A DNA stretch of 64,000 nucleotides from positions 324,270 through 388,269 of the forward strand of contig NZ_JACHBZ010000003.1 of NCBI RefSeq assembly GCF_014200575.1, given 5' to 3'. This DNA comes from Mucilaginibacter saanensis. Lineage in GTDB: Bacteria; Bacteroidota; Bacteroidia; Sphingobacteriales; Sphingobacteriaceae. Below, piece after piece: positions 46,837 to 63,613 of this stretch (the first letter of the stretch is position 1; every line of letters starts with the position of its first letter). Made by a program: the position numbers and the translations under genes. The notes under the pieces were generated by a model, which had not been told where the DNA came from, searched no databases, and saw only the letters and a program-made list of their open reading frames with translations.

Positions 46837-46850
46837 TGCAATCGATTGTA
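46837..46850 (-). promoter_or_regulatory. LacI-type operator before GH43
   Basis: TGCAATCGATTGTA, a 14-base palindrome with one mismatched pair, 102 bases upstream of the GH43 start. It shares the core CAATCGATTG with the sites at 48192, 61112, 61186 and 63600. No clean -7 box is seen next to it. Confidence 0.7.
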
Positions 46851-46917
46851 AATATAAAAAGCTTTATCACTTTTTCAAACCCAATTCATTAATATTTAAC
46901 CTCGAATAACATTATTT

Positions 46918-48114
46918 TTATTGATCAGTCAGTGTCCTTTTAATTCCCATTTCGAGCCCTCTAAGCTCCGCCAATCCTTTTAATCTGCCGATGGCCGAAT
47001 ACCCCGGATAGGTGTCGTACTGATAATCATCCAAAATTTTATGCCCATGATCCGGGCGCATCGGTATAGCTAAGTCTTCCCTGCCTGCCTTTTTTCTTTT
47101 CAGCTGCTCATTTATAATGCTTTTCATTACCTCGTACATATCCGTACTTCCGGCTAAATGTTCCGCTTCATAAAAACTGCCGTCGGTTTCACGTTTAACA
47201 TTTCTGAAATGTAAAAAATGAATGTGCTGCCCCAACCGTGAAATTATACCCGGAATATCATTATCCTCCCGGGCACCCAATGAACCTGTACACAACGTTA
47301 TCCCGTTGCTTACAGACGGACAGGCATTTACAATACCCGCCAGATCGCTCTCCGTTGAGGCCACCCTTGGTAAACCAAGTATAGGAAATGGCGGGTCATC
47401 CGGGTGGATACACATCTTAACCCCTATTTCTTCGGCAACAGGAATAATCGCCCGAAGAAAATAGTACAGGTTATTTTTTAAGCTATCGCTATCTGTTTGG
47501 CTATACTTTTTTAAGTACTCTTTAAATTGCTCAATGGTAAAAACCTCATCGGTACCGGGTAAGCCGGCCAAAATGGTATTGGCTAATAATTCCTTTTCGC
47601 TGGCGCTTAAACTATCCAGATATTTTTTTGCTGCCGATTGCTGGCTGTGGGAAAATTCATCAAAAGCAGCCGCGCGCTCTAAGATATAAAGATCAAAAGC
47701 TGCTACGGCCGATGCTTCATATCTTAATGCCGAAGCACCATTGACCAGTCTGTAATCTAAATGAGTACGTGTCCAATCTAATACCGGCATAAAATTGTAG
47801 CAAATGGTGCCAATGCCGATGTGGGCAACATTTTTTAGGGTATCAATATAATTGTCAATGTATTTATCCCTTTCGGCCCCACCTAATTTAATGCTTTCAT
47901 GAATATTTACACTTTCAATAACCGACCATTTAAACCCAGCGTTTTTTATTACATTATTGCGGGCTGTTAACTCTGCAACACTCCATACTTCGCCGCAAGG
48001 TATGTGATGAAGCGCTGATACGATGCCACTGGCTCCTGTTTGCTTAATGGCTGGCAAGGTAACCGGATCTGACGGGCCAAACCACCGGAAAGTTTGTTCT
48101 AAATCGGGAATCAT
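46918..48114 (-). CDS. uxuA: Mannonate dehydratase UxuA
   Basis: A 398-residue enzyme converting D-mannonate to 2-keto-3-deoxy-D-gluconate (EC 4.2.1.8) in glucuronate catabolism. The N-terminus has the UxuA signature: FRWFGPSDPVTLPAIKQTGA, then GIVSALHHIPCGEVW. Later blocks include KMCIHPDDPPFPILGLPRV and FLHFRNVKRETDGSFYEAEH, with the His, Cys and Asp residues that bind the metal. Length is normal and no signal peptide is present. It is divergent from the lacI-SDR pair and has a LacI-type operator 8 bases upstream of its -7 box. With GH115 alpha-glucuronidase in the same window it completes the route for glucuronic acid released from xylan. High confidence. Confidence 0.95.
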   Translation of the reverse strand: MIPDLEQTFRWFGPSDPVTLPAIKQTGASGIVSALHHIPCGEVWSVAELTARNNVIKNAGFKWSVIESVNIHESIKLGGAERDKYIDNYIDTLKNVAHIGIGTICYNFMPVLDWTRTHLDYRLVNGASALRYEASAVAAFDLYILERAAAFDEFSHSQQSAAKKYLDSLSASEKELLANTILAGLPGTDEVFTIEQFKEYLKKYSQTDSDSLKNNLYYFLRAIIPVAEEIGVKMCIHPDDPPFPILGLPRVASTESDLAGIVNACPSVSNGITLCTGSLGAREDNDIPGIISRLGQHIHFLHFRNVKRETDGSFYEAEHLAGSTDMYEVMKSIINEQLKRKKAGREDLAIPMRPDHGHKILDDYQYDTYPGYSAIGRLKGLAELRGLEMGIKRTLTDQ

Positions 48115-48175
48115 AAATTTAAATTTCTATTACGTTTATTGGTTCATTTTATCCTGCTATGGCAGTATTATAAAA

Positions 48176-48205
48176 CAAATGTAAAGATTTGTGCAATCGA
48201 TTGTT
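48176..48205 (-). promoter_or_regulatory. uxuA promoter with LacI-type operator (divergent lacI/uxuA region)
   Basis: Minus-strand TACATTTG (48176-48183) fits the -7 consensus; the operator TGCAATCGATTGTT (48192-48205) lies 8 bases upstream of it, where it would block RNA polymerase. The site is also 70 bases before the lacI start, and a weak -7-like TATATTTA (48236-48243) serves the lacI side, so one site may control both directions. Confidence 0.7.
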
Positions 48206-48275
48206 TAAATATTTTAATAGCACCACATTAATTTTTATATTTATCCATCTTTACTAATAAACATAACAGCACACC

Positions 48276-49307
48276 ATGAACGGCGGCGAAAAAGAAATAA
48301 CAATTTATGATATAGCCGATAAGCTTCATATATCTGCGGCCACTGTTAGCAGGGCCCTTCAGGATCATCCGAGGGTGAGCAAAAAAACTAAGAAACTGGT
48401 TATTAAAACTGCCGGCGATATGGGTTATCGCTCCAATTCATTTGCCAGTAACCTGCGTAAAAAAAGCAGCAATATTATTGGCCTTATTGTGCCAAGGCTC
48501 AACAGTAATTTTATGGCCGATGTAATTGCCGGCATTGAAAAGGTTTTGAATAACAATAATTACAACCTGATCATCAGCCAGTCGTTAGAAACCATGCAAA
48601 AGGAAATTAATAATGCCAACGCCATGTTAGTTAACCGGGTTGATGGCTTACTGGTTTCACTTGCTTATGATACAACAAATGTTGACCATTTTGAGCCGTT
48701 TATAAAAAGGAATATACCGGTAATATTCTTCGACAGGGTTTTTGACCACGACGGATGCCCTCAAATCTACATTGATAACTATAAGGCGGCCTATGAAATT
48801 ACCTCGCATTTAATTAAACAGGGTTGCAAACGGATAGTGCATATCACCGCCAGCCAGCTGCGTAAAGTATATGCCGAAAGATATGCAGGCTATCAAAAAG
48901 CACTGGAAGACAATAATATAAAACTGGATACAAACCTGGTGATCATTAATGACCTGAGCAGCGAGGCCGGGATTACGGCAGCTCATCAGCTTTTAAAGAT
49001 GTCGCCCCTACCCGATGGCGTTTTTTCGGCCAATGACAATTGCGCCATAAGCTGCATGCAAACATTAAAAAAGGCAGGCATCCGGATCCCTGCCGATATT
49101 GCTTTTGCGGGATTTAATAATGATCCCTCCTCATGCGTGGTAGAACCTAATCTTACAACCGTAAATTATAAAGGATACGAAATGGGCGAAGTGGCCGCTA
49201 AATTAATGATCGATAACCTGATCAATAAGGATGAGTTTCATCCGGCTCATAGCCTTGTGTTAAGATCAGAGCTTATTGTTCGTGAATCTTCTCTGCGGGT
49301 TATATAA
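48276..49307 (+). CDS. LacI-family transcriptional regulator of the glucuronoxylan regulon
   Basis: A 343-residue LacI/GalR regulator. The N-terminal helix-turn-helix is ITIYDIADKLHISAATVSRA (8-27), followed by the hinge region MGYRSNSFASNLRKKSSNII. The rest is a periplasmic-binding-protein-like effector domain (about 60-340), with ALLxxG-type blocks such as VDGLLVSLAYDT and PDGVFSANDNCAIS. It is cytoplasmic. It is divergent from uxuA and 22 bases before an SDR gene, and palindromes of LacI type (core CAATCGATTG) precede uxuA/lacI, GH43, the xylan susC and the esterase. It is the obvious candidate to bind them. The effector is probably a glucuronate-pathway or xylo-oligosaccharide intermediate; that is inference. 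Confidence 0.9.
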   Translation: MNGGEKEITIYDIADKLHISAATVSRALQDHPRVSKKTKKLVIKTAGDMGYRSNSFASNLRKKSSNIIGLIVPRLNSNFMADVIAGIEKVLNNNNYNLIISQSLETMQKEINNANAMLVNRVDGLLVSLAYDTTNVDHFEPFIKRNIPVIFFDRVFDHDGCPQIYIDNYKAAYEITSHLIKQGCKRIVHITASQLRKVYAERYAGYQKALEDNNIKLDTNLVIINDLSSEAGITAAHQLLKMSPLPDGVFSANDNCAISCMQTLKKAGIRIPADIAFAGFNNDPSSCVVEPNLTTVNYKGYEMGEVAAKLMIDNLINKDEFHPAHSLVLRSELIVRESSLRVI

Positions 49308-49329
49308 ACCCTATATATAATAAAAGTTA

Positions 49330-50076
49330 ATGGAAACAAAATCTAAGATAGCAATAGTTACAGGCGGCGCCTCTGGCCTGGGGTTAGCCATCACTAAAAA
49401 ATTTACTGAGCACAATATTAAAACAATCATCATTGGCCGCGATGAAAAAAAGCTGCAAACCGCAGCTGATACTTTCGGGCCGCTTTGCAATTATAAAGCC
49501 TGCGATCTTAGCAATATTGCAACCATACCTGCACTAATTGAAGAGATTACCTCAGAGTTTGGCACACCGGATATCCTGGTGAATAATGCTGGCATTAATA
49601 TGAAAAAATCATTCACTGAGGTTACCGACGAGGATTTTCAGAATATTATACAAACCAACCTGACAGCTGTATTTGTAATGAGCCGCGAGGTTAGCAAAAA
49701 AATGATCGGTGCGGGTACTGGTGCTATTGTAAACATCAGTTCTATGGCATCACAATATGGCATCCCCTATGTAATTGCCTATACTGCCAGTAAGGCTGCT
49801 ATTGAGGGGATGACAAGAGCCATGGCTACAGAGCTATCCCCCATAGGGATACGCATAAATTGCGTAGCACCGGGATTTATAGCAACTGATATGTCGGCAA
49901 AGGCCCTTAATAATGATCCGGAAAGAAAAAACAAGGTATTATCACGCACCCCTATGGGCAAATTAGGAGATCCTGATGATATTGCCGAGGCGGTATTATA
50001 CCTGTCCTCAGATGCTTCACGTTACGTTACAGGTGTTATTTTACCTGTCGACGGCGGAAACTCCATCGGCTTTTAA
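49330..50076 (+). CDS. Short-chain dehydrogenase, probable fructuronate (mannonate) oxidoreductase
   Basis: A 248-residue classical SDR. It has the cofactor motif VTGGASGLGLAITKKF (TGxxxGxG), NNAG, and the catalytic Ser-Tyr-Lys set in NISSMASQYGIPYVIAYTAS (YxxxK). C-terminal VAPGFIATDM and GVILPVDGG are standard. Adjacent lacI and uxuA suggest it supplies mannonate by reducing fructuronate, replacing the unrelated long-chain enzyme UxuB, which is not in this window. Gluconate 5-dehydrogenase-type or 3-oxoacyl-ACP reductase-type activity is an alternative, because SDR specificity is hard to predict. It is cotranscribed with lacI and ends at a terminator. Confidence 0.7.
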   Translation: METKSKIAIVTGGASGLGLAITKKFTEHNIKTIIIGRDEKKLQTAADTFGPLCNYKACDLSNIATIPALIEEITSEFGTPDILVNNAGINMKKSFTEVTDEDFQNIIQTNLTAVFVMSREVSKKMIGAGTGAIVNISSMASQYGIPYVIAYTASKAAIEGMTRAMATELSPIGIRINCVAPGFIATDMSAKALNNDPERKNKVLSRTPMGKLGDPDDIAEAVLYLSSDASRYVTGVILPVDGGNSIGF

Positions 50077-50095
50077 ATAAATTCCGTCGAAATAG

Positions 50096-50139
50096 AAAAG
50101 GGCGATAAACACTGACAGCCAGTGTATATCGCCCTTTTT
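50096..50139 (+). terminator. Bidirectional terminator between SDR and GH115 genes
   Basis: The arms around AAAAGGGCGATA...CACTG (from 50096) and CAGTGTATATCGCCC (50120-50134) pair over about 18 bp with a short loop and are followed by TTTTT. It lies 20 bases both from the SDR stop and from the GH115 stop on the other strand. Confidence 0.8.
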
Positions 50140-50159
50140 GATGAATAAAGCAATATCCG

Positions 50160-53006
50160 TTATAATCCCGGTGGCCCAAGATAGCTTTCTTTTAGTCCGC
50201 CTGCATTAATAACCAATTTTTGCAAAACCACACCTGCATCAACCATCCAATATTTTAATAAGTGTTTCCCTGGCTTGGTGATATGATGCTGGGTCATCAT
50301 TTTTTTCATATTGTTACTTACATCATTTCTCCAGCTTTGTTCAGATGTGTTTTTATTAATATTAACTATCTGAGGTTGTTCATCATCAACAGAAACTGCA
50401 TAGCATAAGCCACCTTGGTTTTTAAAATCTAATGTCGGGGATATATATGCTGTTACCGATACCATGCCCGTATCTTTTAAACTGATATTATACTCCAAAT
50501 GAGGACTATTACCACCTGGCTTAATTTTCCCGGCAGTTACAGGCAACGGAGTTATACCCGATAAAGTACTGCCGTATTCGGGAATAGTTTCCCAGTTAAT
50601 TGCAGGGGTTTTAGCAAATTTGCTATAATGTGCGGCTTCAATAGCTATATAGCCATTGTTCTCTTTAAATAAAGAGGCGCTGCTGGTTCCCTGATTATTA
50701 ATCGTCAGATTGATAGTTACATTTCCCTGCGGTCCTTTAATAATTAACGGAACATGACTTATGCCCTGTGGCGCTTTCATCCAGTTAACGTTAAGTTCAA
50801 TCCGCTGCTGCTCATTAACCACACCTGCCTTTGGCCGAATGCTTACGTAAGTTGCTGCACAGTCAACCGAATAATTAAAGGCCGTTTCACCACGATTATA
50901 AATTTCAATATAACTTCCATCCTTTTCCCACGAGTAAAATCCGGGCATTTCGGTTATTATTGCCGTTCCTGACCATGAATTGGGTAACCCCGGTATAGAT
51001 ACTCCCATTTGTCCGTCTTTAGGTAAGGTAAGGGTTTTCACGCGGGGCATTTTATTTGAATCGGGCTGTTGCCAGTAGGTATAACCAATATGGGTTTGAT
51101 CCATCATGTGGTTCCACTTTCCGTTGGCCAGTATAGTGTTGTAATGGTGAGATATTTCTTTATCCCTGGCGTAAAGAGCGTTCACTTTTGCAGCTGTACT
51201 ATTGGTGGCAGCCCTTCCCTGCTCTGCATACCATTGGTTTTTGGCCGTTTCATAATACATTTCGTTCAAATTAGCACAGGCCTGCACCGGATGCAATACC
51301 AACTCATAAAATGCATCTTTATAGTTTGATGGCATTTTAGCATACAACTTTTCCGCATCAAGTTTCAATTGATTATAATACTTTACCACGTTTTCAAACT
51401 CGCTGTAATTGGTAAGACTGTAAGTATCCTGGTTAAGTAATTCAGGCTTTCTTCTGCCATTATATTTCGTATAAAGCGTTAATATACGGGCTATCTCTTT
51501 TGCATATTGTGCACCAAATTGTTGTTTTGCCCAATCAATGGTGTAGGTATTTAAATTATCAGCCTTCCATTTATCAGGAGCCCAGGCATAGTCCAGGAAA
51601 AAGCTGATGGGGAACTCCATGGGTTTAAGATCGCCTACATTAACAATCCAGATCTGCCGGGCGTTGTATTCATAAGCCAGGCGCATTTGCTCCCATGTTT
51701 TTGAAATAGGATTGGTATTAAGCCATTTATAATTACGGGGATCGCCTACATAATCAAAATGATAATAGATGCCATATCCTCCTTTACGCGGGTGCTCTCC
51801 TAATTTGGGCAATTTGCGAATGTTACCCCAATTATCATCACACAACAGTAAGGTAATATCATCAGGTACACGCATGCCTTTATCATAGTAATCCTGTACT
51901 TCTTTATAAAGTGCCCACATTTGCGGCGTTTGCGATGCATCCTTCCCGGTTACATCGGTTATAACTTTCCGCTGATCACGTACAATATTCTCCAGCAGTG
52001 TAATGTTGCTACCTTCTGTCATCGGCATATCGCCGTCACCACGCATACCAACAGTAACAATGGTTTCTTTGTTACCCATGTTCTGGATGCCTTTGCGCCA
52101 AAAACTTTGTAATACAGTTTTGTTGGTTTCATAATTCCAGGCACCCGTTCCGTAGCGCTTCCATTCCTGCTGTGCCCTATCCATTGGTTCATGATGCGAT
52201 GTTCCCATTACCACGCCATACTCATCTGCCAGCACCGGATTTAGCTTATCATCATCGTTAAAAGCATTACCCCACATAGCGGGCCAAAGATAATTCCCCT
52301 TTAAACGCAGAATAAGCTCAAACATCTTTTCATATACATGATGGTTTAACCCGCCGAATTTCTCTTTTGCCCACCCCGAAAAAGCAGGAGCTTCGTCATT
52401 GATAAAAATACCCCTGTATTTTACGGCCGGTTCACCATCAGTATAGCTACCAGGCATTACGTACAAGCTTTTATGTTCCTTTACAGGCACATCGGCCCAC
52501 CAGTACCAGGGTGAAACCCCTATTTGCGATGAAACATCATAAATACCAAATATGGTTCCCCGCTTATCACTGCCCGCAATTACCAAAGCCTGATCTACCC
52601 CGGGAAATGGTTTTTGTACTACCTTTATCAAATAGGTTTCCCATTTGCCCGCAACGGCAGATACGTTGAGCTTTTTTTGCTCCACCAACTGGTCTATCTT
52701 ATCATTTTTGCCTAAAGTACCAATGAGTACTACTTGTTTACTTCCTTTCAGTTCGGGCAATAATTCAGGTATGTTTTTAGTTACTGCCTGCACATCGCCC
52801 ATAAAACTTTTGATAGCACGTTTTACACCTGGGTATTCATCTGTGCCTGTGTAAACCGGTGCAGCCTTGCTGTTCGCCGCTAATGCAAAGTACCCTGCCC
52901 CATTGGCATAGGAGATATACGATTTGCGCCCAGGCGACTGGCCATATATAAGTACCGGAAAAAATATGGCAATTATAAAAAGGATGTTTTTTTTGATAAA
53001 CTTCAT
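50160..53006 (-). CDS. GH115 xylan alpha-1,2-glucuronidase, secreted
   Basis: A 948-residue enzyme with a Sec signal peptide (MKFIKKNILFIIAIFFPVLI, cleaved near YGQ). Conserved GH115 blocks are present: GTIFGIYDVSSQIGVSPWYW, KGNYLWPAMWGNAFNDDDKL, GVVMGTSHHEPMDRAQQEW and LLCDDNWGNIRKLP. GH115 removes (4-O-methyl-)glucuronic acid from internal and terminal xylose residues, unlike GH67, which acts on ends only. A C-terminal beta-sandwich domain (about 790-945) may bind glycan. It is the last gene of the susC-susD-GH10-GH10-GH115 operon, 12 bases after the second xylanase. Its product feeds the UxuA pathway encoded next door. Confidence 0.93.
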   Translation of the reverse strand: MKFIKKNILFIIAIFFPVLIYGQSPGRKSYISYANGAGYFALAANSKAAPVYTGTDEYPGVKRAIKSFMGDVQAVTKNIPELLPELKGSKQVVLIGTLGKNDKIDQLVEQKKLNVSAVAGKWETYLIKVVQKPFPGVDQALVIAGSDKRGTIFGIYDVSSQIGVSPWYWWADVPVKEHKSLYVMPGSYTDGEPAVKYRGIFINDEAPAFSGWAKEKFGGLNHHVYEKMFELILRLKGNYLWPAMWGNAFNDDDKLNPVLADEYGVVMGTSHHEPMDRAQQEWKRYGTGAWNYETNKTVLQSFWRKGIQNMGNKETIVTVGMRGDGDMPMTEGSNITLLENIVRDQRKVITDVTGKDASQTPQMWALYKEVQDYYDKGMRVPDDITLLLCDDNWGNIRKLPKLGEHPRKGGYGIYYHFDYVGDPRNYKWLNTNPISKTWEQMRLAYEYNARQIWIVNVGDLKPMEFPISFFLDYAWAPDKWKADNLNTYTIDWAKQQFGAQYAKEIARILTLYTKYNGRRKPELLNQDTYSLTNYSEFENVVKYYNQLKLDAEKLYAKMPSNYKDAFYELVLHPVQACANLNEMYYETAKNQWYAEQGRAATNSTAAKVNALYARDKEISHHYNTILANGKWNHMMDQTHIGYTYWQQPDSNKMPRVKTLTLPKDGQMGVSIPGLPNSWSGTAIITEMPGFYSWEKDGSYIEIYNRGETAFNYSVDCAATYVSIRPKAGVVNEQQRIELNVNWMKAPQGISHVPLIIKGPQGNVTINLTINNQGTSSASLFKENNGYIAIEAAHYSKFAKTPAINWETIPEYGSTLSGITPLPVTAGKIKPGGNSPHLEYNISLKDTGMVSVTAYISPTLDFKNQGGLCYAVSVDDEQPQIVNINKNTSEQSWRNDVSNNMKKMMTQHHITKPGKHLLKYWMVDAGVVLQKLVINAGGLKESYLGPPGL

Positions 53007-53018
53007 TGGTACCTTTTA

Positions 53019-54101
53019 TTAAAAATTTACTACACGCAGATATGCCTTTTTACGCTGCATGTTTTGATCAAACAATAAGGGATAATTTTTTCGGCCTTTT
53101 ACAGGATACTCGTCAAGCCATGTATGTTTGTCAGTTATATTCCAGAAAGTTACGCCAGAAATAACATCTTTATAATTACGAAAAACCTTAAATACCATGG
53201 CATATTCATCGGCCTGTTTTTGCTCAAGATCTGGCGTAAAGGTATCCTGTTCATTTGGTCTTAACGCACGCGGATTTTTCTCCCAGGGATAAACAGACAT
53301 ATCTAACTCGGTGATCTGAACCTTCAGGCCCAAAGAGGCAAATCTTTTAATAGTAGTTATCAAATCCTTTTGTGTTGGTTCATACACCGACCAATGGGCC
53401 TGTAAACCTACCCCATTAACCGGCACCTTAGCATCCTTCAGCTTTTTAAGTAAGCGATATACCCTTTCTCTTTTTTCGGGCCGTTCTGTATTATAGTCGT
53501 TATAAAAAAGTATCGCATTGGGATCTGCTTCGTGGGCATATTCAAAAGCTTTAAAAATAAAATCTTCTCCGCATATTTTATACCATAAAGAATTTCGCAA
53601 AAACTGGGTGCTGTCGTCGGCGATGGCTTCATTAACTACATCCCACGCATAAATTTTGCCCTTATAACGACCTACCACATTAAAAATATGATCCTTTAAC
53701 CGTTGTAATAGAACGGTTTTGTTAACCAGGTTACCCTGCTTATCATAAAACAACCATGACGGTGTTTGTTCATGCCAGCAAAGGTTATGCCCCCGCACTT
53801 TTATTTGATTGGCTTGAGCAAAGGCAACTATTGAATCAGCGTCCCGCCAGTTATACCTATCCTCTGCAGGATGAATAGGGCCCATTTTCATGGCATTCTC
53901 TGGCGTGATACTATTAAACTCACGCAGAATTAAGGCTGCTTCCTGCTTATCTTTAATGGAATATGGTGACACGGCGACACCGATTGGGAAATATTTGCCA
54001 TAATAATCCTTTAAGCCCTTTGTTGAAGAGATCTCCTGCCCTGCCGATGTTAGCCTCAGCAATATTAATAAAATGGGTAATAAGAGCCAGAGGCGCTTCA
54101 T
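53019..54101 (-). CDS. GH10 endo-beta-1,4-xylanase, secreted
   Basis: The ATG at 54101 gives a normal signal peptide (MKRLWLLLPILLILLRLTSA); a GTG at 54122 would extend it. The protein is 360 residues, a bare GH10 TIM barrel: NSITPENAMKMGPIHPAEDR, VRGHNLCWHEQTPSW, acid/base Glu158 in WDVVNEAI, nucleophile Glu265 in ITELDMSV, and GVTFWNITDKHTW. It cleaves internal beta-1,4-xylosidic bonds. No lipobox is seen, so it probably works in the periplasm on imported oligosaccharides, complementing the lipoprotein GH10 upstream. It lies directly before GH115, with a stem-loop between the two GH10 genes. Confidence 0.93.
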   Translation of the reverse strand: MKRLWLLLPILLILLRLTSAGQEISSTKGLKDYYGKYFPIGVAVSPYSIKDKQEAALILREFNSITPENAMKMGPIHPAEDRYNWRDADSIVAFAQANQIKVRGHNLCWHEQTPSWLFYDKQGNLVNKTVLLQRLKDHIFNVVGRYKGKIYAWDVVNEAIADDSTQFLRNSLWYKICGEDFIFKAFEYAHEADPNAILFYNDYNTERPEKRERVYRLLKKLKDAKVPVNGVGLQAHWSVYEPTQKDLITTIKRFASLGLKVQITELDMSVYPWEKNPRALRPNEQDTFTPDLEQKQADEYAMVFKVFRNYKDVISGVTFWNITDKHTWLDEYPVKGRKNYPLLFDQNMQRKKAYLRVVNF

Positions 54102-54187
54102 TGATAAAATAGTTGCTTTCACTTCATTAAAATTACTGACCTTTTAAATTTATTACGGGTTAAAAACCTCATATCGTCAATAAAAAG

Positions 54188-54213
54188 GAATAACCGGAGT
54201 AAGCCGGTTATCC
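54188..54213 (-). terminator. Stem-loop between the two GH10 genes
   Basis: ATAACCGG (54190-54197) pairs with CCGGTTAT (54204-54211), extendable with a bulge. On the minus strand TTCCTTTTTATTG follows the stem, so partial termination is likely. The stem core repeats that of the stem-loop at 55897-55918. Confidence 0.55.
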
Positions 54214-54238: not shown

Positions 54239-55879
54239 TTATAGGGTTTTACCTTGTAAACCTTGTTTAAAGCCTACATAAGCAGCTTTTTTGGTAAAGT
54301 CGGCGTTAAACAGATCCGGTAGGTCAGATTTTTTCTGCGAAGTAATTATCCAGCTTGACGGATCATCTACTCCCCAAATTGTAATACCTGCGCGCTGCGC
54401 TGTGGGAACATATTTAAAATAAGACCAAACTACATATTTATACATCACAGCCTGATCTGCGGCAGTAAAAGGCGTAAGCGTAAAATTACCCTGATCACCC
54501 GGATTTGCCCTGATGTCCAGTTCAGATATCCGCACTTTTAAACCGGTGGCAGCCAGTGCAATAAACATGTTATCTATACCTGCTTTTGGTGTGCCTATGC
54601 TAATATGTAACTGCGTGCCTACACCTGTAATTGGCACACCGGCTGTTTTAAGATCATTAGCCAATTGTACAAAGGCGTTAAGCTTTGCTGTTGATGTTTC
54701 AAGATTATATTCATTCATGAACAGCTCAGCAGCCGGATCGGCCTGGTGAGCATAATTAAAGGCACTTGCCGCATAATTACGACCCAGGTAATTTTGCCAT
54801 ACAAATATGCCGCTGCCCGCAGGGGTATTGCTGTTATCGCGCAAAGCACCAGCATCGGTAAATGGTTCATTAATTACATCCCATTGTTTTATTTTACCTG
54901 CGTAATGGCCAACTACTGTTTGAATATGTGTTTTCATGGCATTATCAACCGTCGTTACCAGGGCATCGCCTGTAGGGGCAGATGCAGCTGCATTATCAAC
55001 CACTGATATATCATCAACCCAATAGGTATTGGCCTTTTGGCCCATATCCAGCAATATGCGGGTTTGCGGGTCTTTGGCTGTAAACGTCCAGGTATATTGA
55101 TTGTAGGTAGTGGTCACATCCTGATCGCCTTCATAAGATGAATTACCACCGGTTGAATTTTGGGTTGATAAACGTATAGCTCCGGTAGCATTAGCCGCTG
55201 CCTTAAGCCAAAAAGTTACTTTATAAACCTTACCCGATTCAGTGTTAAACAAAGGGCTTGCAAACTGTACGGTATACTGCTTACCCGGATTATCTGTAGC
55301 TACAACAACCTTGAGCGCCCTTGATCCGCCATGTACTTCGCCAGTTGTGGTAGTTGCGCTAAAAGAGCCTGAGCCGTTAAAAGCAGACCATCCGTCAAAA
55401 CTATTCCCTGAGCCTGTTTCAAAATCACCGTTGGTTAACAGGTTAGGTGCAGCTGTTGCCGATCCGCTACCAACTATGGTAGAATAGTATGTAGTATTTT
55501 GTTGGGAGTGCCAAACCAACGTATGACCATAAACCTGTAAGCCAGAGCTTGTAGCCAGGTTATAAAATGCATCGGCTGTAGTAAAATCATAAGTACCATT
55601 ATCTTTTAAAACTGAGGAATTTTTTAGTTCGTTACCAAAAGTAATAGCCGAAGCTTCTCTTTTCACCGTGGCCCAGTACCTGGTAGGAGCTGTAGCCAGT
55701 GCATATTCGGCCGCTAAGCCAATGGGGAAATTAGCTGCACTTTTTAACGTACCGGCTGTATCAGTAAAGTTGCCGTAATTGCCCACGCCAAGTACTTGGT
55801 TCTTTTTGCATGAGGTACCCAGCAATGCTATTATTGCAAGAGCGGCCCAATAGGAGTTTTGTAAATATTTTCTGTTCAT
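54239..55879 (-). CDS. GH10 endo-xylanase lipoprotein with a carbohydrate-binding module inserted in the barrel
   Basis: A 546-residue lipoprotein (LIALLGTSC type signal, here IIALLGTSC, Cys24). The GH10 barrel starts at about residue 45 (FPIGLAAEYAL, FGNELKNSSV, YGHTLVWHSQQN to 128). It is then interrupted by a beta-sandwich module of about 150 residues (about 146-296: LLTNGDFETGSGNSFDGW to TYWVDDISVV), resembling CBM4/9/22. The barrel resumes with acid/base Glu338 (WDVINEPF) and nucleophile Glu453 (ISELDIRANP). This inserted layout is known from Prevotella and Bacteroides surface xylanases. The usual TPENxMK block reads ITFGNELK here. It is the first enzyme gene after SusD and is likely the surface enzyme cutting polymeric xylan for import. 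Confidence 0.93.
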   Translation of the reverse strand: MNRKYLQNSYWAALAIIALLGTSCKKNQVLGVGNYGNFTDTAGTLKSAANFPIGLAAEYALATAPTRYWATVKREASAITFGNELKNSSVLKDNGTYDFTTADAFYNLATSSGLQVYGHTLVWHSQQNTTYYSTIVGSGSATAAPNLLTNGDFETGSGNSFDGWSAFNGSGSFSATTTTGEVHGGSRALKVVVATDNPGKQYTVQFASPLFNTESGKVYKVTFWLKAAANATGAIRLSTQNSTGGNSSYEGDQDVTTTYNQYTWTFTAKDPQTRILLDMGQKANTYWVDDISVVDNAAASAPTGDALVTTVDNAMKTHIQTVVGHYAGKIKQWDVINEPFTDAGALRDNSNTPAGSGIFVWQNYLGRNYAASAFNYAHQADPAAELFMNEYNLETSTAKLNAFVQLANDLKTAGVPITGVGTQLHISIGTPKAGIDNMFIALAATGLKVRISELDIRANPGDQGNFTLTPFTAADQAVMYKYVVWSYFKYVPTAQRAGITIWGVDDPSSWIITSQKKSDLPDLFNADFTKKAAYVGFKQGLQGKTL

Positions 55880-55946: not shown

Positions 55947-57704
55947 TTAGTAGCCTGGGTTTTGTTCCATTTTTGGCCCTGTAGTAACCAGGTTAATTTC
56001 AGATGATGGTATAGGGCGTAATGAATAAGCATCGGCTGGGTTTGATTTTGAATAACCGCTGTATGCCTCGGTTGGGTTATAAGTCTGTAACCTCCTACCT
56101 AATGATTGCGTACGGGACAGATCCCACCAACGGGTGCATTCCTCATACATTTCGCGTGAGCGTTCGTCCAATATAAAATCAAGTGTAATTTGTTGTGACG
56201 TTATCTGCATAGCTGCTACAGCTGCGTTATTTTGATCAGGCGTATTGGTAGTTTTGTAAGCAGCCCTGGTTCTTAATACATTCAGCATGGCCGCAGCATT
56301 CTGAAGATCATTGGCTTTAAAATAAGCCTCGGCAGCTAATAAATAAACATCGGCAAACCTGGCCACTACAAATGGTCTTGTTGACGGATCATTAACACCG
56401 GTACGGTTAGGGTCATCATATTTCTTCATAGATGGGAAATATGTAGGTGTGTAAGCATTGGCCGTTGAGCCTGAAGTGATCAGTGATGGTGGTATCAAAA
56501 TAACTCCCTTAAATGAAGCGCGTTTGGCAGCACCCGGATCAAATGGAGGCATCCATATTGCAGTATCAACGCCTACGGTTAATGCCCCTCTTGGTGTTGT
56601 TACGCCTGCAGTATTGGCAATCCATGTAGTTTGGAAAGTTTTATCAAAACGGCTGTCGTTATTTCTTTCGGCAAATACATACAGCATATAGTCGGTATTT
56701 GGACGTATACGAATAAACGGACGACCATTTGCAATATCACGTGTCATGACCGGTGAACCGGTTGAAGATGGATAGCCTGATACTACTGTTGGATAATTGG
56801 GACGGAAAAAGAAGTTAGTAGCGTTATAATTACCGCCAGAACCACCCGCTTGGTAGTTACCATATTTGGTGTCGCTGCTTTCGTCTATTACAAAAAGTGT
56901 TTCCTTACCATAATCATTGCCCGGTTTAAAGGCATCGCCAAAGTCCTGCCAAAGATCAACCCCATAGGTACCTTTATTGGCAATCAGCGTATTAAAAGTT
57001 GTGGCAGCCGTTGCAAAATCACCGGTTTGTGCAGCTGATGACCATCCGCGGCTTAAGTACGCCTTACCCAAATAATACAAAGCTGCAGATTGTGTAGCAG
57101 CCTTACCACCAAAGGGAGTGCCGGGTGTTACCTGCAATTCTTTTGAAGCGTCTGTAAAATCCTTAATTACCTGTGCATATATATCTGCCAATGGAGCCCT
57201 TGTATCGGATGTTGTTGGCGATGTAATAAAAGTTGTATGTAAAGGAACCTTGCCAAAGGTAATAGCCAAATGGTAATACAAAAATGCACGTAAAAATTTA
57301 GCTTGAGCCAGGTATTGTGTGCGCTGGGTTACATCGGTAATGGCTGTTCCATATTGGAGCACCCCGTTTAAGGTGTTAATATCCTGATAGGCGATCTGGA
57401 AAATATACCTGAACTCATCTGTGCTGATATTGGTATAGGTAAACAAAGGGGTGCCACTGCCGCTGCCGCCAAGTAAAGTTTCATCAACCCCGCCTACTAC
57501 CTCGTTGGTAAAACCCTCGGTGCCCCAAAGGCTGCGTAAAGTACCGTAAACACCGGTAATACCACCTATTACGCCAACTGGCGAAGCAAAAGATTGCTGG
57601 GTTATATTGGTTCGTTGTGTTTCAACCAATGTTTTTTTACAGCCGCCTAAGCTTAAGGACGAAGCTGCTGCAATCATTATCGAAATCTTTTTATATTGTT
57701 TCAT
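55947..57704 (-). CDS. SusD/RagB-family lipoprotein (xylan PUL)
   Basis: A 585-residue SusD homologue with a lipoprotein signal (SSLSLGGC, Cys22). Conserved regions include AQAKFLRAFLYYHLAITFGK near residue 130, ARFADVYLLAAEAYFK, LDERSREMYEECTRWWDLSR and SLRPIPSSEINLVTTGPKME at the end. It is surface-anchored, binds xylan fragments and works with the SusC encoded 19 bases upstream. This PUL has no separate SusE/SusF-like binding protein; the CBM-bearing xylanase may partly serve that purpose. Confidence 0.9.
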   Translation of the reverse strand: MKQYKKISIMIAAASSLSLGGCKKTLVETQRTNITQQSFASPVGVIGGITGVYGTLRSLWGTEGFTNEVVGGVDETLLGGSGSGTPLFTYTNISTDEFRYIFQIAYQDINTLNGVLQYGTAITDVTQRTQYLAQAKFLRAFLYYHLAITFGKVPLHTTFITSPTTSDTRAPLADIYAQVIKDFTDASKELQVTPGTPFGGKAATQSAALYYLGKAYLSRGWSSAAQTGDFATAATTFNTLIANKGTYGVDLWQDFGDAFKPGNDYGKETLFVIDESSDTKYGNYQAGGSGGNYNATNFFFRPNYPTVVSGYPSSTGSPVMTRDIANGRPFIRIRPNTDYMLYVFAERNNDSRFDKTFQTTWIANTAGVTTPRGALTVGVDTAIWMPPFDPGAAKRASFKGVILIPPSLITSGSTANAYTPTYFPSMKKYDDPNRTGVNDPSTRPFVVARFADVYLLAAEAYFKANDLQNAAAMLNVLRTRAAYKTTNTPDQNNAAVAAMQITSQQITLDFILDERSREMYEECTRWWDLSRTQSLGRRLQTYNPTEAYSGYSKSNPADAYSLRPIPSSEINLVTTGPKMEQNPGY

Positions 57705-57723
57705 GTCTTCTGATGCTTAAATG

Positions 57724-60700
57724 TTAAAGTTTTACACTAACGCCTAACTGGAATGTGCGCGTTGGCGGGTTATTCAGATTTACTGTAATAGCACGGCTGC
57801 CTGTAGTACCGGCGCTGCCACCACCTGCCGTAGGGTAGCTTGGGTTTACTGTTGAAATTACGATACCGCCTGTTGCATTACCTTCTGGGTCAACGGCTAA
57901 ACCGCTTTTAACCAATGGCGAATAAATGATAAAAGGGTTATAGCAGGTAGCATATACTCTTAACGAGCTGATACCTGCTCTTTTTAAGAGTTTTGAAGGA
58001 ATGGTATAACCAAGGTTGATACTCCGCATTTTAACAAATGAGCCATCGCGGTAAGCCAGGGTTGACGCATATATCTGTTTATCATTTGCGGCATCAGGCG
58101 CAGGAAAATCATTGGTTGGGTTGGTTGGAGTCCAGTAGTTTACCTTCCATTGGTTAACGCGTCCGTTACCAAAAAACGGATATCCTTGTGCACTGCCGTC
58201 GGCGGTTAAATAAGGTACTATAACGGTTTGCCCGATACGATAATTAGCTACAAAATTCAGATCGAAGTTTTTATAGAAGAAGGTATTGGTAATACCACCG
58301 GTATACTTAGGCTGAAAGTTACCGATGATCTGTAAGTCGCTGGTATTGATCTTACCATCGTTATTCACGTCCTGAACTTTAATCTGGCCAGGTAATTGTC
58401 CGTAAACCGCTGCCTGGGCCGCCTCACTGGTTTGCCAGATACCTATCTTTTTCACATCATAAATAACATTGAAAGGTTGGCCTACAAACCAGTTGTTGCC
58501 TATATCCTGCGTTAATCCGTCGTGCAGGGCAACAATAGTATTCCTGTTAAAGGATATATTGAAGTCTGTAGTCCAGTTTAAACCATCTTGGCTTTTCAGG
58601 TTTTGTGAACTCAGGGTAATCTCTAAACCTTTACCCTGGGTTTTACCTATATTGGCGTAGTAAGATGTGGCACCATTACTATAAGGTAAATTTACCTGTT
58701 GTAATATCTTGTCGGTTTTTTGTTCGTAAACATCAACCGAACCTGTAATGCGATCCTTAAATAAACCAAAATCCAAACCAATGTTTATGCTGTTTGTAAA
58801 CTCCCATGTTAGGTTTTGATTGGCCAGCGTAGCTAAATAGTAGCCGTTTGCACCTGTTGAACCATAGTTGTAAAAATTACTTGACAATGGGCCTGATGAT
58901 GAATAAGCACCAACCGACTGGCTTGATGTTTTACCATAACCACCCCTTATTTTTAAAGCAGATACTACATCACTTGCACCTTTAAAAAAATCTTCCCTGT
59001 CAATATTCCAGGCAGCAGCAAACGCCGGGTATACGTAATATTTTTTGTTAGGGAATACAGATGAACCATCATCTCTGATAGTAGCAGTTACCGAATACTT
59101 TCCATTAAAAACATAGTTTAAACGGGCCATGTAGGAGATTAAACCATTTTCAGAAAAGCCTCCGGTATTGGCCGAAATGCTGTTGGCCTGAGCCAGGTTA
59201 TAATTCTGAATATAGTCAACCGGGATGCCTACACCTGCAAAACCATTATTCTGATAGTGGTCTTTTTCAACGCTATATACACCGGTAAACGTAAGGTGAT
59301 GTTTCTGGGCAAATACCTTGTCGTACGTTAAAATGTTATCAATGGTATAGCTATAGTTTTCGCTGGCGTTCACATTTTCGCTGGATTGCGCGTAAGAAGT
59401 ATTGGTATTGTAAAAGGTATTAGGTCCTGAATACATACCGCCGCCACTTGAATAATAACTGAAACCTAAATTGGCCCGGTACTTTAATCCGTCAATAATG
59501 TTTATTTCGGTATATAAAGTGTTGATAGAGCTTAATCTTCTGTTTTGGTCAGTATTGGTCGAGTTATCCCTTATAGTCAACGGGTTTACTACCGAAGCAT
59601 CAAGAGAACCGGCTTGTGGCAGCAGGTTCACGGAACCATCGGCATTGTACGGTGATACCAGCGGACTAAGCCTTACCACGCCCCCAACCGGATAACGGTT
59701 ACTTCCATTGGTAACTGCAAGGTTAGCTATGGTACTACCACCAACTTTTAAAAACTTGCTTACCTGGTGATCTAAAGTAGCGCGCATAGTGTAGCGGGTA
59801 TAATCCTGCCCGTAAACTATCCCTTTCTCATGGCGGTATCCTGTACCAAATGAAAATTGTGTATTCTCTGTACCGCCAGAAATATTTAAGCTTTGATCAT
59901 TGGTAAAACCTTGCCTGAATATAATTTTTTGCCAGTCGGTATTTGTTCCATTGGTAAGGCCTGTTTGCTCGGCAGCCGTTAAGTTATAGTTTGAGGTACC
60001 TGGGTTAACGCTATTCAGTACCCGTGCAGTTTCCTTAAATGCGGCATATTCCTGCCCGTTCATAAAATTATACTCACTTGTAGGGTTGCTTACACCCGCG
60101 TAGGCATTATAGTTAACAATAGTTTTACCTGCCTTACCGCGTTTGGTGGTTACTATGATTACACCACTTGCACCTCTTGAACCATAAATAGCTGTTGCAG
60201 AGGCATCTTTCAATACGTCAATTGAAGCAATATCATCTGGATTAATATCATTGATGCTTCCTCCAAAAAACGGAACGCCGTCTAATACAATCAGCGGGGA
60301 GTTTTGGTTATTATTCTGGGTGCCCGAAGCCCCTAATGACCGTTCGCCACGTATGCGTATTTGCCCCACGGCACCTGGCTGACCACTGTTATTCTGGATA
60401 TCAACACCGGCCAAACGGCCTTGCAATTGATTAACAACGTTGGTAGCAGGTACCTGTTGTAAAGTTGCAGCACTTATAGAACCGGTTGCTCCAGTAATAT
60501 CGCGTTTACGCTGCGTTCCGTACCCAACAACTACCACATCATTTAAGCTGTGACTACCCGGAACTAACTTAATGTGTAAATTTGAACTTTGTTCGGTTAT
60601 AGGAACTACCTGGTCAGTATAACCTATATAGGTTACCAATAACGATGTTTCATTGTCAGAAACATTAAGGGAGAATTTACCATTAAGATCTGTTAAAGTT

Positions 60701-60873
60701 GCCAGTTTACCTGACTTCAGCTTTACAGTTGCTCCAATAAGTGGATACCCTTTCTCATCCAGTACAGTACCATTAATCTTTTTGGATTGGGCATAAAGTG
60801 ATAAGGAAATTAAGCTCATACTTATCAGCATAAGCAATGCCCTCCAGCAGTTTTTCCGTATTTGTTTTTTCAT
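57724..60873 (-). CDS. SusC/RagA-family TonB-dependent transporter (xylan PUL)
   Basis: A 1049-residue transporter: signal peptide (ending LSLYAQ), CarboxypepD_reg-like domain (about 32-110, VLDEKGYPLIGATVKLKSG), TonB-box region (LNDVVVVGYGTQRKRDITGA), plug domain (DASATAIYGSRGASGVIIVT) and a barrel ending RTFQLGVSVKL. It takes up xylo-oligosaccharides through the outer membrane. It heads the susC-susD-GH10-GH10-GH115 operon. Its upstream region carries two LacI-type operators and a degenerate third; no hybrid sensor or sigma/anti-sigma pair is adjacent, so control probably rests with the LacI regulator at 48276. Confidence 0.92.
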   Translation of the reverse strand: MKKQIRKNCWRALLMLISMSLISLSLYAQSKKINGTVLDEKGYPLIGATVKLKSGKLATLTDLNGKFSLNVSDNETSLLVTYIGYTDQVVPITEQSSNLHIKLVPGSHSLNDVVVVGYGTQRKRDITGATGSISAATLQQVPATNVVNQLQGRLAGVDIQNNSGQPGAVGQIRIRGERSLGASGTQNNNQNSPLIVLDGVPFFGGSINDINPDDIASIDVLKDASATAIYGSRGASGVIIVTTKRGKAGKTIVNYNAYAGVSNPTSEYNFMNGQEYAAFKETARVLNSVNPGTSNYNLTAAEQTGLTNGTNTDWQKIIFRQGFTNDQSLNISGGTENTQFSFGTGYRHEKGIVYGQDYTRYTMRATLDHQVSKFLKVGGSTIANLAVTNGSNRYPVGGVVRLSPLVSPYNADGSVNLLPQAGSLDASVVNPLTIRDNSTNTDQNRRLSSINTLYTEINIIDGLKYRANLGFSYYSSGGGMYSGPNTFYNTNTSYAQSSENVNASENYSYTIDNILTYDKVFAQKHHLTFTGVYSVEKDHYQNNGFAGVGIPVDYIQNYNLAQANSISANTGGFSENGLISYMARLNYVFNGKYSVTATIRDDGSSVFPNKKYYVYPAFAAAWNIDREDFFKGASDVVSALKIRGGYGKTSSQSVGAYSSSGPLSSNFYNYGSTGANGYYLATLANQNLTWEFTNSINIGLDFGLFKDRITGSVDVYEQKTDKILQQVNLPYSNGATSYYANIGKTQGKGLEITLSSQNLKSQDGLNWTTDFNISFNRNTIVALHDGLTQDIGNNWFVGQPFNVIYDVKKIGIWQTSEAAQAAVYGQLPGQIKVQDVNNDGKINTSDLQIIGNFQPKYTGGITNTFFYKNFDLNFVANYRIGQTVIVPYLTADGSAQGYPFFGNGRVNQWKVNYWTPTNPTNDFPAPDAANDKQIYASTLAYRDGSFVKMRSINLGYTIPSKLLKRAGISSLRVYATCYNPFIIYSPLVKSGLAVDPEGNATGGIVISTVNPSYPTAGGGSAGTTGSRAITVNLNNPPTRTFQLGVSVKL

Positions 60874-61095
60874 AATTTATAATTTGAATTAAAGGCTTTA
60901 ATTGTTGAACATACTCCGTGTGTTTCCCAGGAAAATGATTAGTCATTAGGCAATGCGGCAAACACTTATAAGCGGTACATGAAGTAATTTTTTCTCATAG
61001 ATTTTAATTTAATAATGGTTTTAAACTGGTTTAATCAACAAATGGCTTTGTGGCCGGATAACTTTAACAGGTACAGTATTATAATTTGGCTGACG

Positions 61096-61125
61096 TAAAA
61101 CTATCATAAAATACAATCGATTGCA
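61096..61125 (-). promoter_or_regulatory. Promoter-proximal LacI-type operator before xylan susC
   Basis: The operator TACAATCGATTGCA (61112-61125) lies 8 bases upstream of TAGTTTTA (61096-61103), a -7-like box one base off TAnnTTTG. This is the same geometry as at uxuA (48176-48205). The predicted leader to the start codon is more than 200 nt. The 686-base gap 60874-61559 holds this site, the second operator at 61186 and a degenerate copy at 61432; I see no gene. Confidence 0.65.
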
Positions 61126-61185
61126 CAAATAAAATAAGTTTTATGGATATTTTTATTTTGAATGGATTTCATCAATAAAAATTTA

Positions 61186-61199
61186 AGCAATCGATTGTT
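61186..61199 (-). promoter_or_regulatory. Upstream LacI-type operator before xylan susC
   Basis: AGCAATCGATTGTT, centre 61192.5, exactly 74 bases from the centre of the proximal site (61118.5). That is close to seven DNA turns, so one tetramer or two dimers could loop the DNA. A half-conserved copy, TGCAATCGA, starts at 61432. Confidence 0.65.
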
Positions 61200-61559
61200 T
61201 TTTTGCTATATTCTATAGTAGATGAATAATTTATTCGAAAAATAGCAACCCGGAAAATTGTGTTTATATCAGGATTTGTTAAAAAATGTATAACAAATAA
61301 TCATTAACACTACTTTAACTTAAAAAGGTAGAAACTATACAGTTAGCAGAATATAATTTATTTAGTCTTTTTTTGCCAGGGAATTATTAGTAGATATATG
61401 GGGTTGAAGTTTTGAGCTAAAATAACATTTATGCAATCGAAGTACCACATAATTTAGCCCTGAATATGCATATATAAGTATTACCAAATAAAGCTTAAAT
61501 GGATAATTTACCATTAATACGAAAGGCTCATTCAATATTCCATATTTGGTAATTACATC

Positions 61560-63518
61560 CTATTGATCATCTGTTGTAAAAGGTGAAGCTGGTAACCCCT
61601 CTTTATTATACAGATTGGCATCTTCGGGATTGTCAGCCCAGGCATAACGAACATATAACGGAACCTGCACATCATCGCTCCAAACAACTACTTTATCCCC
61701 GTCAATACGGGCGTTAGCCCATACATATTTTTTGTCATTACCGGCTATTGCAAAATGCATTAACTCATCGCCATTTTTTGCGATCAATCCGCTGCCAGTA
61801 TTATCAAAACTGATAATGATTTTATTGCCAGCTATCTTAAATGATTGATATAACGGTCCTGATGCCACTATTTTAGTATCATGGTAAGCAATTTTCTCGG
61901 CAGCAAGAGCCAGCCGATCACCCACATCTTTTTTATCAAGCGGATGAATATCATTCCACTCCCCGGCATCAATAGTTACTGCCATCTCCGTATTAGGCAC
62001 GCTAAGTGACCTCAGTTCCCCTTCCCGAAGTTCGGCCCATTGACTTTCTGACGGCGAGTATTGTACTTCCATAAAACCCGGTAATTGTGCATATATAAAA
62101 GGAATATTGCCTAATTTCCATTTATTACGCCAGTCTGTAATAAGGGCAGGCAGCAGATTTTGGTATGCTTCCGGTTTAAATGTATTTGCTTCGCCCTGGT
62201 ACCACAAAATGCCTTTAATCTGATAGTTGATTGCAGGCGCAACCATTGTATTATAGAGGCCAGTGGGTTCATTTTGCATGGCGAATTTATTGACGTTACC
62301 ACTATTTACTCCGGGATCAATAACCTCCCCTACCTTATACAGCCAATCGCCCCGAAGATCAATTTTTTGATCACCTATCTGCAGATAATATGGTTTTTCA
62401 GGTACAAAGCCTCCCTTCCCAGCTGTATTAACAACTTTAACTACAATGATATTTTTACCTGGCTTAAGTATTCCATTTGGTAAATTGTACCTGCGTGGTG
62501 GGTATTGATAAGTGGTCTCTCCTACTAATACGCCGTTAATGTAAATTTTATCCGCATCAACTATGCGCCCCATGAAAAGTTTTGCCGGTTTACCCAAAAC
62601 TGCCGACGGGATTATAATCTCTTTATGGAACCAAACCGTGCCATTCAATCCTTTTATACCCTGGTCCGCCCAGTAGCCTGGAAGCCAGAAATTATGCCAG
62701 CGCACCGGATTATAAGTGGTATCATACCACTTAACTGATTCGGCCAGGCCTTTATCTATCGATACTTTTGCTGGTTGTTGCGCTGCGAGCAGAGGTTTCT
62801 TATTGATTAGCCCATTGATATAGGTAGTATCTTTAAAAATTAAAAGTTTATCCTGATACTCCCGAAATTGTTGAAGTCCCTGTTCGCTGATCCAGGCTTC
62901 AATTGGCGTTCCCCCAACACTGGAGTTTATTAAACCAATGGGTATGTGATATTTGAGATATATTTGTTTAGCAAAGAAGTAGGTAGCAGCACCAAAACCT
63001 AAAACGTTTTTCGGAGTAGCGGAGATCCACTTTCCCGGAGGCAGATCCTGATGTAACTTAGTAACATCGGCTACGGTTGGTATAAAAAAATTCCTGACCT
63101 GCGGAAAATCAGCATGCTCAATCTCTTTCGGATATTTTTCCTTAACCCGCTCCATGGGCAATACCATATTTGACTGGCCTGAGCAAAACCACACATCTCC
63201 AATTAAAATATCTTGAATCTGTAAATGATTATTAGCCACAATATCCATAATATATGGCCCTCCAGCTTTCATAGCAGGTAATAACATTATCCAATCACCA
63301 TTTTTATCTGTCATTGCCTTGCCGCTTCTGCCATTGAACTTTATTTCAACTTTTTCACCTGGTGCTCCCCATCCCCAAAGCTTAATTTTAACATCCCGCT
63401 GCAATACCATGCCATCGCTTACCAATTTGGGCAAACGTACATCGGCATTAGCTGACCCGGCAGCCATAAAAAGGCAGCTTACGAAAGCTGTTAAACAACA
63501 TTTTAAATTAAACTTCAT
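61560..63518 (-). CDS. SGNH-family carbohydrate acetylesterase (SASA/CE20-like) with inserted jelly-roll domain
   Basis: A 652-residue secreted esterase (signal peptide ending GSANA). The SGNH fold carries GDVWFCSGQSNMVLPM (nucleophile Ser116), SSVGGTPIEAWIS, GILWYQGEANTFKP and the distal NDIHPLDKKDVGDRLALAA with the catalytic Asp-x-x-His. Between about residues 270 and 400 a jelly-roll domain is inserted (IVDADKIYINGVLVGETTYQ). The family is annotated as sialate O-acetylesterase, but plant-glycan members such as CE20 have this inserted-domain layout and remove acetyl groups from xylan or xyloglucan. A LacI-type operator 82 bases upstream links it to the xylan regulon, favouring acetyl-xylan as substrate. 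It is a separate transcription unit upstream of susC. Confidence 0.85.
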   Translation of the reverse strand: MKFNLKCCLTAFVSCLFMAAGSANADVRLPKLVSDGMVLQRDVKIKLWGWGAPGEKVEIKFNGRSGKAMTDKNGDWIMLLPAMKAGGPYIMDIVANNHLQIQDILIGDVWFCSGQSNMVLPMERVKEKYPKEIEHADFPQVRNFFIPTVADVTKLHQDLPPGKWISATPKNVLGFGAATYFFAKQIYLKYHIPIGLINSSVGGTPIEAWISEQGLQQFREYQDKLLIFKDTTYINGLINKKPLLAAQQPAKVSIDKGLAESVKWYDTTYNPVRWHNFWLPGYWADQGIKGLNGTVWFHKEIIIPSAVLGKPAKLFMGRIVDADKIYINGVLVGETTYQYPPRRYNLPNGILKPGKNIIVVKVVNTAGKGGFVPEKPYYLQIGDQKIDLRGDWLYKVGEVIDPGVNSGNVNKFAMQNEPTGLYNTMVAPAINYQIKGILWYQGEANTFKPEAYQNLLPALITDWRNKWKLGNIPFIYAQLPGFMEVQYSPSESQWAELREGELRSLSVPNTEMAVTIDAGEWNDIHPLDKKDVGDRLALAAEKIAYHDTKIVASGPLYQSFKIAGNKIIISFDNTGSGLIAKNGDELMHFAIAGNDKKYVWANARIDGDKVVVWSDDVQVPLYVRYAWADNPEDANLYNKEGLPASPFTTDDQ

Positions 63519-63599
63519 AAACGGCTTCTTAGGTTAAAAAGAGGTAAAGTGCAGATTTTACACAATATTTAAACAAATATGAAGCATTTTTTTATTAAA

Positions 63600-63613
63600 A
63601 GCAATCGATTGCA
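63600..63613 (-). promoter_or_regulatory. LacI-type operator before the acetylesterase
   Basis: AGCAATCGATTGCA contains a perfect 12-bp palindrome, the best copy in the window, 82 bases upstream of the esterase start. A weak -7-like CATATTTG is at 63574-63581 (minus). The 433-base gap 63519-63951 otherwise holds only the repeats at 63821-63866 and the rRNA terminator. Confidence 0.7.

Follow-up and report, generated by a model that had tools for sequence, protein, structure and literature searches.

In Xanthomonas, the LacI-type repressor XylR acts on the xylan CUT loci (carbohydrate utilization loci with TonB-dependent transporters) and xylose or short xylo-oligosaccharides relieve its repression (PMC13282271); a palindrome of the Caulobacter xylose regulon is also found before Xanthomonas xylose genes (PMC1790865). 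In the Caldicellulosiruptorales, the LacI protein XynR spans xylulose kinase, xylosidase and xylan loci, the ROK protein XylR being a second regulator of xylan use (PMC12285236). Within Bacteroides, glucuronate use is predicted to be regulated by the LacI protein UxuR (BT1434), and xylose use in B. thetaiotaomicron has been assigned to the NrtR-family XylR (BT0791) (PMC3878776, PMC4052901). Furthermore, a figure of the xylan polysaccharide utilization locus (PUL) of Gramella flava includes a lacI gene (PMC5306329), and three LacI genes near hemicellulase clusters of Roseithermus sacchariphilus rise on xylan, these being read by the authors as activators (PMC7409140). The canonical controls of hemicellulase genes named in a 2024 review are hybrid two-component systems (HTCS), extracytoplasmic function (ECF) sigma systems and catabolite repression (PMC10766802). 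In this work, we analysed a short palindrome with the core CAATCGATTG, and the LacI-family regulators associated with it, in a stretch of 64,000 nucleotides from Mucilaginibacter saanensis (the window; contig NZ_JACHBZ010000003.1, positions 324,270 to 388,269), in the rest of its genome and in relatives.

Our results indicate that in Mucilaginibacter the 12-mer RCAATCGATTGY is probably the operator of a xylan, xylose and glucuronate regulon, read by two LacI isorepressors, here termed W-type (encoded in the window) and X-type (encoded at the xylose operon). This reading was obtained in silico, from the sites, their placement and conservation, their co-occurrence with both LacIs within the genus, and the sister relationship of the two proteins.

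A scan of the window located the core exactly at 46839, 48194, 61114, 61188 and 63602; RCAATCGATTGY, which is the core plus one base on each side, fits all five copies, versus a mean of 0.00 in 100 dinucleotide shuffles. An earlier note on this DNA had listed the same copies as 14-mers, with coordinates 2 bases earlier, each upstream of a xylan-related unit, and they are indeed exact and intergenic, lying upstream of GH43, between the divergent uxuA and lacI, upstream of susC (twice) and upstream of the SASA/SGNH-type esterase gene; the partial match that it mentioned at 2163-2172 differs from the core by one mismatch. The genome-wide scan suggested there as a check also supports the motif: in the source genome (G000; 6.24 Mb, 46 contigs), exact 10-mers number 15 versus 6 for the reversed string, and exact 12-mers 13 versus 0, with 12 of the 13 near a gene start and eight outside the window.

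Both LacI types display an N-terminal LacI helix-turn-helix and a periplasmic-binding-protein-like ligand domain above Pfam cut-offs; among the named LacI regulators of NCBIfam, 18 models matched the W-type and 20 the X-type, every score being under cut-off. The X-type gene, divergent from xylulokinase in the xylose operon, encodes a protein with 36% identity to the W-type of the window. In a tree of 44 LacIs (17 W-type, 16 X-type, two from G050 and nine others of the source genome, constructed without Wtype_G035, L026 and L027), W and X are sister clades (95/93). Nineteen of the 20 loci returned as relatives of the window LacI are named Mucilaginibacter, with 60-91% identity, and L058 (Companilactobacillus, 24% identity) was excluded from the W-type counts. 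Regarding their arrangement, the two genes lie about 7 kb apart in G016, G023 and G033, and in G108 an X-type gene and a second LacI gene, with its best match in the W/X set, stand in tandem beside xylulokinase and a short-chain dehydrogenase/reductase (SDR) gene (L329), so the two types can be neighbours.

The two types carry the palindrome upstream of their own genes, and in the comparison of orthologous loci, proposed as a check in the earlier note, many of them keep the site. Exact CAATCGATTG was found upstream of the X-type gene in all 23 parsed genus loci (22 genomes; three further loci, L111, L114 and L112, were not parsed), 60-79 nt before the TIYDIA codons, and in 20 of 24 further loci of the family sample, three having no copy and one (L337) being unparsed. 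For the W-type, a site was present in 16 of 19 named loci (10 exact, 6 with one mismatch), in 16 of 18 loci comprising further relatives and the window's own (10 exact, 6 with one core mismatch; L026, L027, L112, L081 and L077 not parsed, and the gene read in L070 being the first of a tandem pair), and in 16 of 24 family loci (2 exact, 14 with one mismatch); the W-type and X-type sets may overlap in species. The background for these counts is 12 of 808 reversed 530-nt stretches, and none of the 9 other parsed LacIs of the source genome has an upstream match within one mismatch of the 12-mer. Thirteen of the 14 one-mismatch family sites correspond to the near-palindromic variant CAACCGATTG or its complement (L292, L294, L295, L300, L304-L307, L309, L311, L313-L315), which also occurs before the W-type genes of G007, G024, G030 and G050 (L072-L075). 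A single recognition-helix residue dictating this variant was discarded, as it occurs with both SPATVSR and SAATVSR helices. The earlier note had taken one LacI as the controller, which does not hold as stated: the operator is also present at the paralogous gene of the xylose operon (C4:154188), where it is more strictly conserved than at the W-type gene of the window.

The number of sites follows the presence of the two regulators within the genus. Among 37 genus genomes, the mean number of exact 12-mers was 13.3 with both LacIs (n=10), 5.6 with W only (n=7), 4.9 with X only (n=12) and 0.9 with neither (n=8). When only genus genomes at least 90% complete were considered, those with either LacI (26) had 1-20 sites and those with neither (6) had 0, 0, 0, 0, 1 and 1 (p=1e-4), the reversed motif giving p=0.97 in the same genomes. 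A second genus sample, which shares genomes with the first, including four of the ten with neither LacI, gave 0-17 sites with either LacI (25 genomes) and 0-1 with neither (10 genomes; p=9e-6).

Regions were fetched around 171 sites from 22 genomes, covering all sites of most of them (partial for G017, 2 of 20; G026, 8 of 14; and G050, 1 of 2; G005, G029 and G033 are among the genomes whose sites were not fetched). From these sites, 159 lie within -500 to +100 of the start of an open reading frame (ORF), compared with 34% of random positions, 9 are inside ORFs and 3 elsewhere. Eleven permuted palindromes yielded 4 matches in total versus 171, a biased test since the regions had been fetched around the motif, and the whole-genome counts of the reversed pattern were therefore preferred. 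The target clusters, by number of genomes, include LacI (16), xylulokinase (16), XylA (14), symporter (11), window-type SusC (10), GH115 (9), SASA esterase (8, source genome included), GH10, UxuA, GH43, GH31, and a second SusC and SusD (7 each), transaldolase (5), transketolase, GH67, GH39 and GH3 (4 each), and CE15-like and HTCS (3 each); XylA, the symporter, SusD, transketolase and part of several others were counted as members behind the first gene. The same kinds of targets were found in named species (uxuA, GH67, GH43, GH115, susC, esterase, xylulokinase, GH39 and transaldolase), with GH43 relatives preceded by a site in L040, L044, L045 and L049. The proposal of a set marked by a LacI-type palindromic operator, in which xylan breakdown is coupled with deacetylation, the removal of side chains and glucuronate catabolism, is supported, the name glucuronoxylan regulon being too narrow for a set that also comprises xylose catabolism and, in relatives, transaldolase and transketolase.

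Five genomes have exact CAATCGATTG within their gene for xylulokinase as well, and these copies fall at two places when the genes are aligned (L104 in G033, L149 in G005 and L247 in G023; L137 in G024 and L169 in G030), the protein being poorly conserved at the first place among 34 xylB entries. These intragenic copies could be auxiliary operators, for which lacO2 in lacZ is a precedent; the copies in L084/L106 and L321 were not counted as intragenic, most likely being the divergent operator within an over-long ORF or start.

The placement of the sites relative to candidate promoters was also considered. The Bacteroidetes -7 consensus is TAnnTTTG, and the single operator between uxuA and lacI lies between two -7-like elements; by eye, CAAATRTA stands at the uxuA -7 place in 5 of the 19 named loci, and TATATTTAT at the lacI -7 place in 10. 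In a set of 233 site-and-direction pairs, where orthologues and divergent pairs enter more than once, matches to TAnnTTT are enriched at 8-31 bp on the downstream side of the operator centre (92 matches in three 8-bp bins, with 5-16 in each distant bin), and there is a further enrichment at 9-24 bp on the upstream side (47 matches over two bins). Such positions are consistent with repression and autoregulation. Looping through helical phasing, considered for the pair of operators before susC, was dropped, as the hand-derived pair spacings looked unphased.

We infer binding by both proteins, and repression. In the absence of sugar, W and X would occupy core promoters, blocking not only the PUL but also the operons for xylose and glucuronate, accessory glycosidases and esterases, and the two lacI genes themselves, and xylan-derived ligands would release both repressors.

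Several observations weigh against this reading. The p-values of the co-occurrence ignore relatedness, and genomes without both LacIs may simply have lost the whole pathway, for which the same pattern would be expected. Sites are absent upstream of the W-type gene in 3 of 19, 2 of 18 and 8 of 24 loci of the three sets, the X-holding genus genome G230 (47% identity) has no exact site, xylulokinase lacks a preceding site in the W-only genomes G007, G024 and G030, and many of the sites are followed by unlabelled genes, as with most of the 12 in the X-only genome G001. Twelve-mers with one mismatch are at background in the source genome (45 versus 39 reversed), so only the exact motif stands out genome-wide; accordingly, chance was discarded as the origin of the exact motif in the window and genome by the shuffles and the reversed control, and not for the one-mismatch forms. 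Outside the genus, the mean number of exact sites was 1.64 in 39 genomes with W or X versus 1.62 in 127 without (p=0.17), and 11 of the 39 have none; when the genus g39 was left out, the means were 1.56 versus 0.78 (p=0.0016). The 34 genomes of g39 average 4.1 sites (control 1.0), with a W-type LacI in 3 and an X-type in none, and the labelled flanks in 20 regions of its genomes G192 and G242 consist of relatives of SusC and HTCS plus an SDR. Of the proteins in these G192 and G242 regions, six were scanned and correspond to an ECF sigma factor, FecR, a sugar transferase, an epimerase, a redoxin-type protein and a ROK protein, and none of the labelled xylose or xylan enzymes was matched in these regions, the SDR excepted (g39 loci: G192 and G242, L341, L342, L346, L347, L351, L352 and L355-L374; G231 and G214, L343, L344, L348, L349, L353 and L354). 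Since these g39 sites stand beside non-xylan genes, the bare motif has another user in g39, and its use as a family-wide marker of the regulon is ruled out by the family counts and the g39 flanks.

These findings bear on the alternative in which the palindrome belongs to another regulator, such as an AraC-type HTCS output domain, an ECF system or a global factor, and the LacI genes are only among its targets. The site-rich g39, in which 31 of 34 genomes have no detected W or X LacI, the lack of an overall association outside the genus, and the two source-genome sites by HTCS/SusC and SusC/ECF genes (L022 and L023), which could belong to another user, all speak for it. However, Mucilaginibacter genomes with neither LacI have hardly any sites, and the palindrome has a central CG, as is typical of LacI-type operators; we therefore consider this alternative unlikely.

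If the X-type were the only reader, the W-type using another, unseen operator, the stricter conservation of the X-type site would follow, but the W-type genes keep the site or its one-mismatch form in most loci of all three sets, and the W-only genomes G035, G002 and G036 have 15, 8 and 7 sites, respectively, which makes this very unlikely. Least probable is that every site is read by the window LacI and by no other protein. In its favour are the position of this gene among the window sites, the site that it carries itself, and the presence of sites in the seven W-only genomes; against it, the X-type genes have their exact site in every parsed genus locus and the 12 X-only genomes also hold sites, some of them before GH67, GH115 and susC. 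The reading with two isorepressors accommodates both kinds of genomes: a site precedes xylulokinase in the W-only G002, G032, G035 and G036, and sites of X-only genomes precede GH67-GH43 (G013), GH115 (G022) and the window-type susC (G027). Judging by these positions, each LacI type, where alone, is tied to both xylose and xylan genes.

The binding domains of the two types share 49% identity and the ligand domains 32%, and 40 of the 47 fixed differences between W and X are in the ligand domain. One of the differences there, Leu in W versus Trp in X at trimmed position 227, aligns with the phenylalanine by which PurR stacks on its ligand. The ligand-domain differences, including this one, hint at different ligands, and we infer that W responds to a uronate-type signal and X to one of the xylose type. 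A natural AND gate for glucuronoxylan is a tentative possibility, which we hold to be rather less than probable: with shared operators, full derepression would need the xylose-type (X) and uronate-type (W) signals together. If so, genomes with one paralogue would run a one-input version of the same regulon, and the system would be a natural counterpart of the synthetic circuits in which two LacI/GalR proteins, as chimeras at a single operator, produce AND logic (PMC13056197).

Table 1. Operators, candidate promoter elements and genes of the window, and sites elsewhere in the source genome.
Feature	Position in window	Strand	Context or remark
Operator 1, GCAATCGATTGT	46838..46849	no strand	upstream of GH43
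Operator 2, GCAATCGATTGT	48193..48204	no strand	between divergent uxuA and lacI
Operator 3, ACAATCGATTGC	61113..61124	no strand	upstream of susC
Operator 4, GCAATCGATTGT	61187..61198	no strand	upstream of susC; 74 bp from operator 3
Operator 5, GCAATCGATTGC	63601..63612	no strand	upstream of SASA/SGNH-type esterase
Candidate -7 element TACATTTG	48176..48183	-	uxuA promoter
Candidate -7 element TATATTTA	48236..48243	+	lacI promoter
GH43 glycosidase	45647..46735	-	
uxuA, D-mannonate dehydratase	46918..48114	-	
LacI-family regulator, W-type	48276..49307	+	
SDR oxidoreductase	49330..50076	+	behind lacI; candidate uronate-pathway reductase, from context
GH115	50160..53006	-	family of alpha-glucuronidases
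GH10 xylanase	53019..54122	-	
CBM4_9 plus GH10	54239..55879	-	
SusD-like protein	55947..57704	-	
SusC-like TonB-dependent receptor	57724..60873	-	
SASA/SGNH-type esterase with GH2 N-domain	61560..63518	-	candidate acetylxylan esterase
Site L016			convergent gap, upstream of nothing
Site L017			between HTCS gene and GH43-GH8-esterase-SASA operon (second xylan locus)
Site L018			between second LacI gene (X-type, C4:154188) and xylulokinase-xylA-symporter; second uxuA further on
Site L019			before SusC/SusD pair
Site L020			within first codons of longest ORF of a GH31 gene
Site L022			between HTCS gene and susC
Site L023			before susC adjoining ECF sigma gene
Site L025			between GMC oxidoreductase-ThuA pair and MOSC gene

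The features of the locus and the remaining sites of the source genome are listed in Table 1; on its right side the window reaches the end of the contig. No HTCS gene was found for the window PUL among the 11 ORFs scanned in 44972-63518. Genome-wide, the earlier suggestion of a wiring other than HTCS does not hold as stated: sites L017 and L022 adjoin HTCS genes, and HTCS control is not simply replaced by LacI. Elsewhere in the window, 31128-44843 includes a 1394-aa ORF of HTCS size, a 1058-aa ORF, and SusD, GH2 and GH35 genes, and looks like a separate PUL.

Sites were also observed (loci L025, L187, L190, L207 and L262) before a GMC oxidoreductase gene in 5 genomes (with ThuA in the source genome, L025 1931-5478, G000:C3:11503) and before a 3-keto-disaccharide hydrolase cluster in 4 genomes, a hint that a 3-keto-glycoside route is part of the regulon.

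The pair GalR and GalS of E. coli, two LacI/GalR paralogues with a common operator that respond to the same sugar class, offers a parallel. Judging by sequence, W and X would likewise use one operator within the genus, with no association outside it; their ligand domains differ at 40 fixed positions. The system would resemble that of Xanthomonas XylR in the LacI-type control of xylan loci with TonB-dependent transporters, and differs from that single proteobacterial repressor in having two paralogues and SusC/SusD uptake, in Bacteroidota, a likeness drawn by description. XynR and XylR of the Caldicellulosiruptorales belong to two families with different operators, whereas here two LacI paralogues would share one operator. 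For Bacteroides UxuR and XylR, likewise compared by description, the portions of the two papers drawn on describe no joint xylan-xylose-glucuronate LacI regulon (PMC3878776, PMC4052901), and those on the Gramella and Roseithermus lacI genes describe no operator, the activator reading of the latter running counter to simple repression. No published description of this operator was found in the open-licence PubMed Central (PMC) literature, and the combination of two LacI paralogues, one operator and a xylan-xylose-glucuronate set with SusC/SusD uptake in Bacteroidota looks new.

Taken together, one short operator appears to join SusC/SusD uptake, xylanases, side-chain removal, deacetylation, and xylose and glucuronate catabolism, and control would be exerted by cytoplasmic LacI proteins sensing end products, as in Xanthomonas. 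With the paralogues occurring together, singly or not at all across one genus, Mucilaginibacter would constitute a comparative system for the persistence of isorepressors and for a natural multi-input gate.

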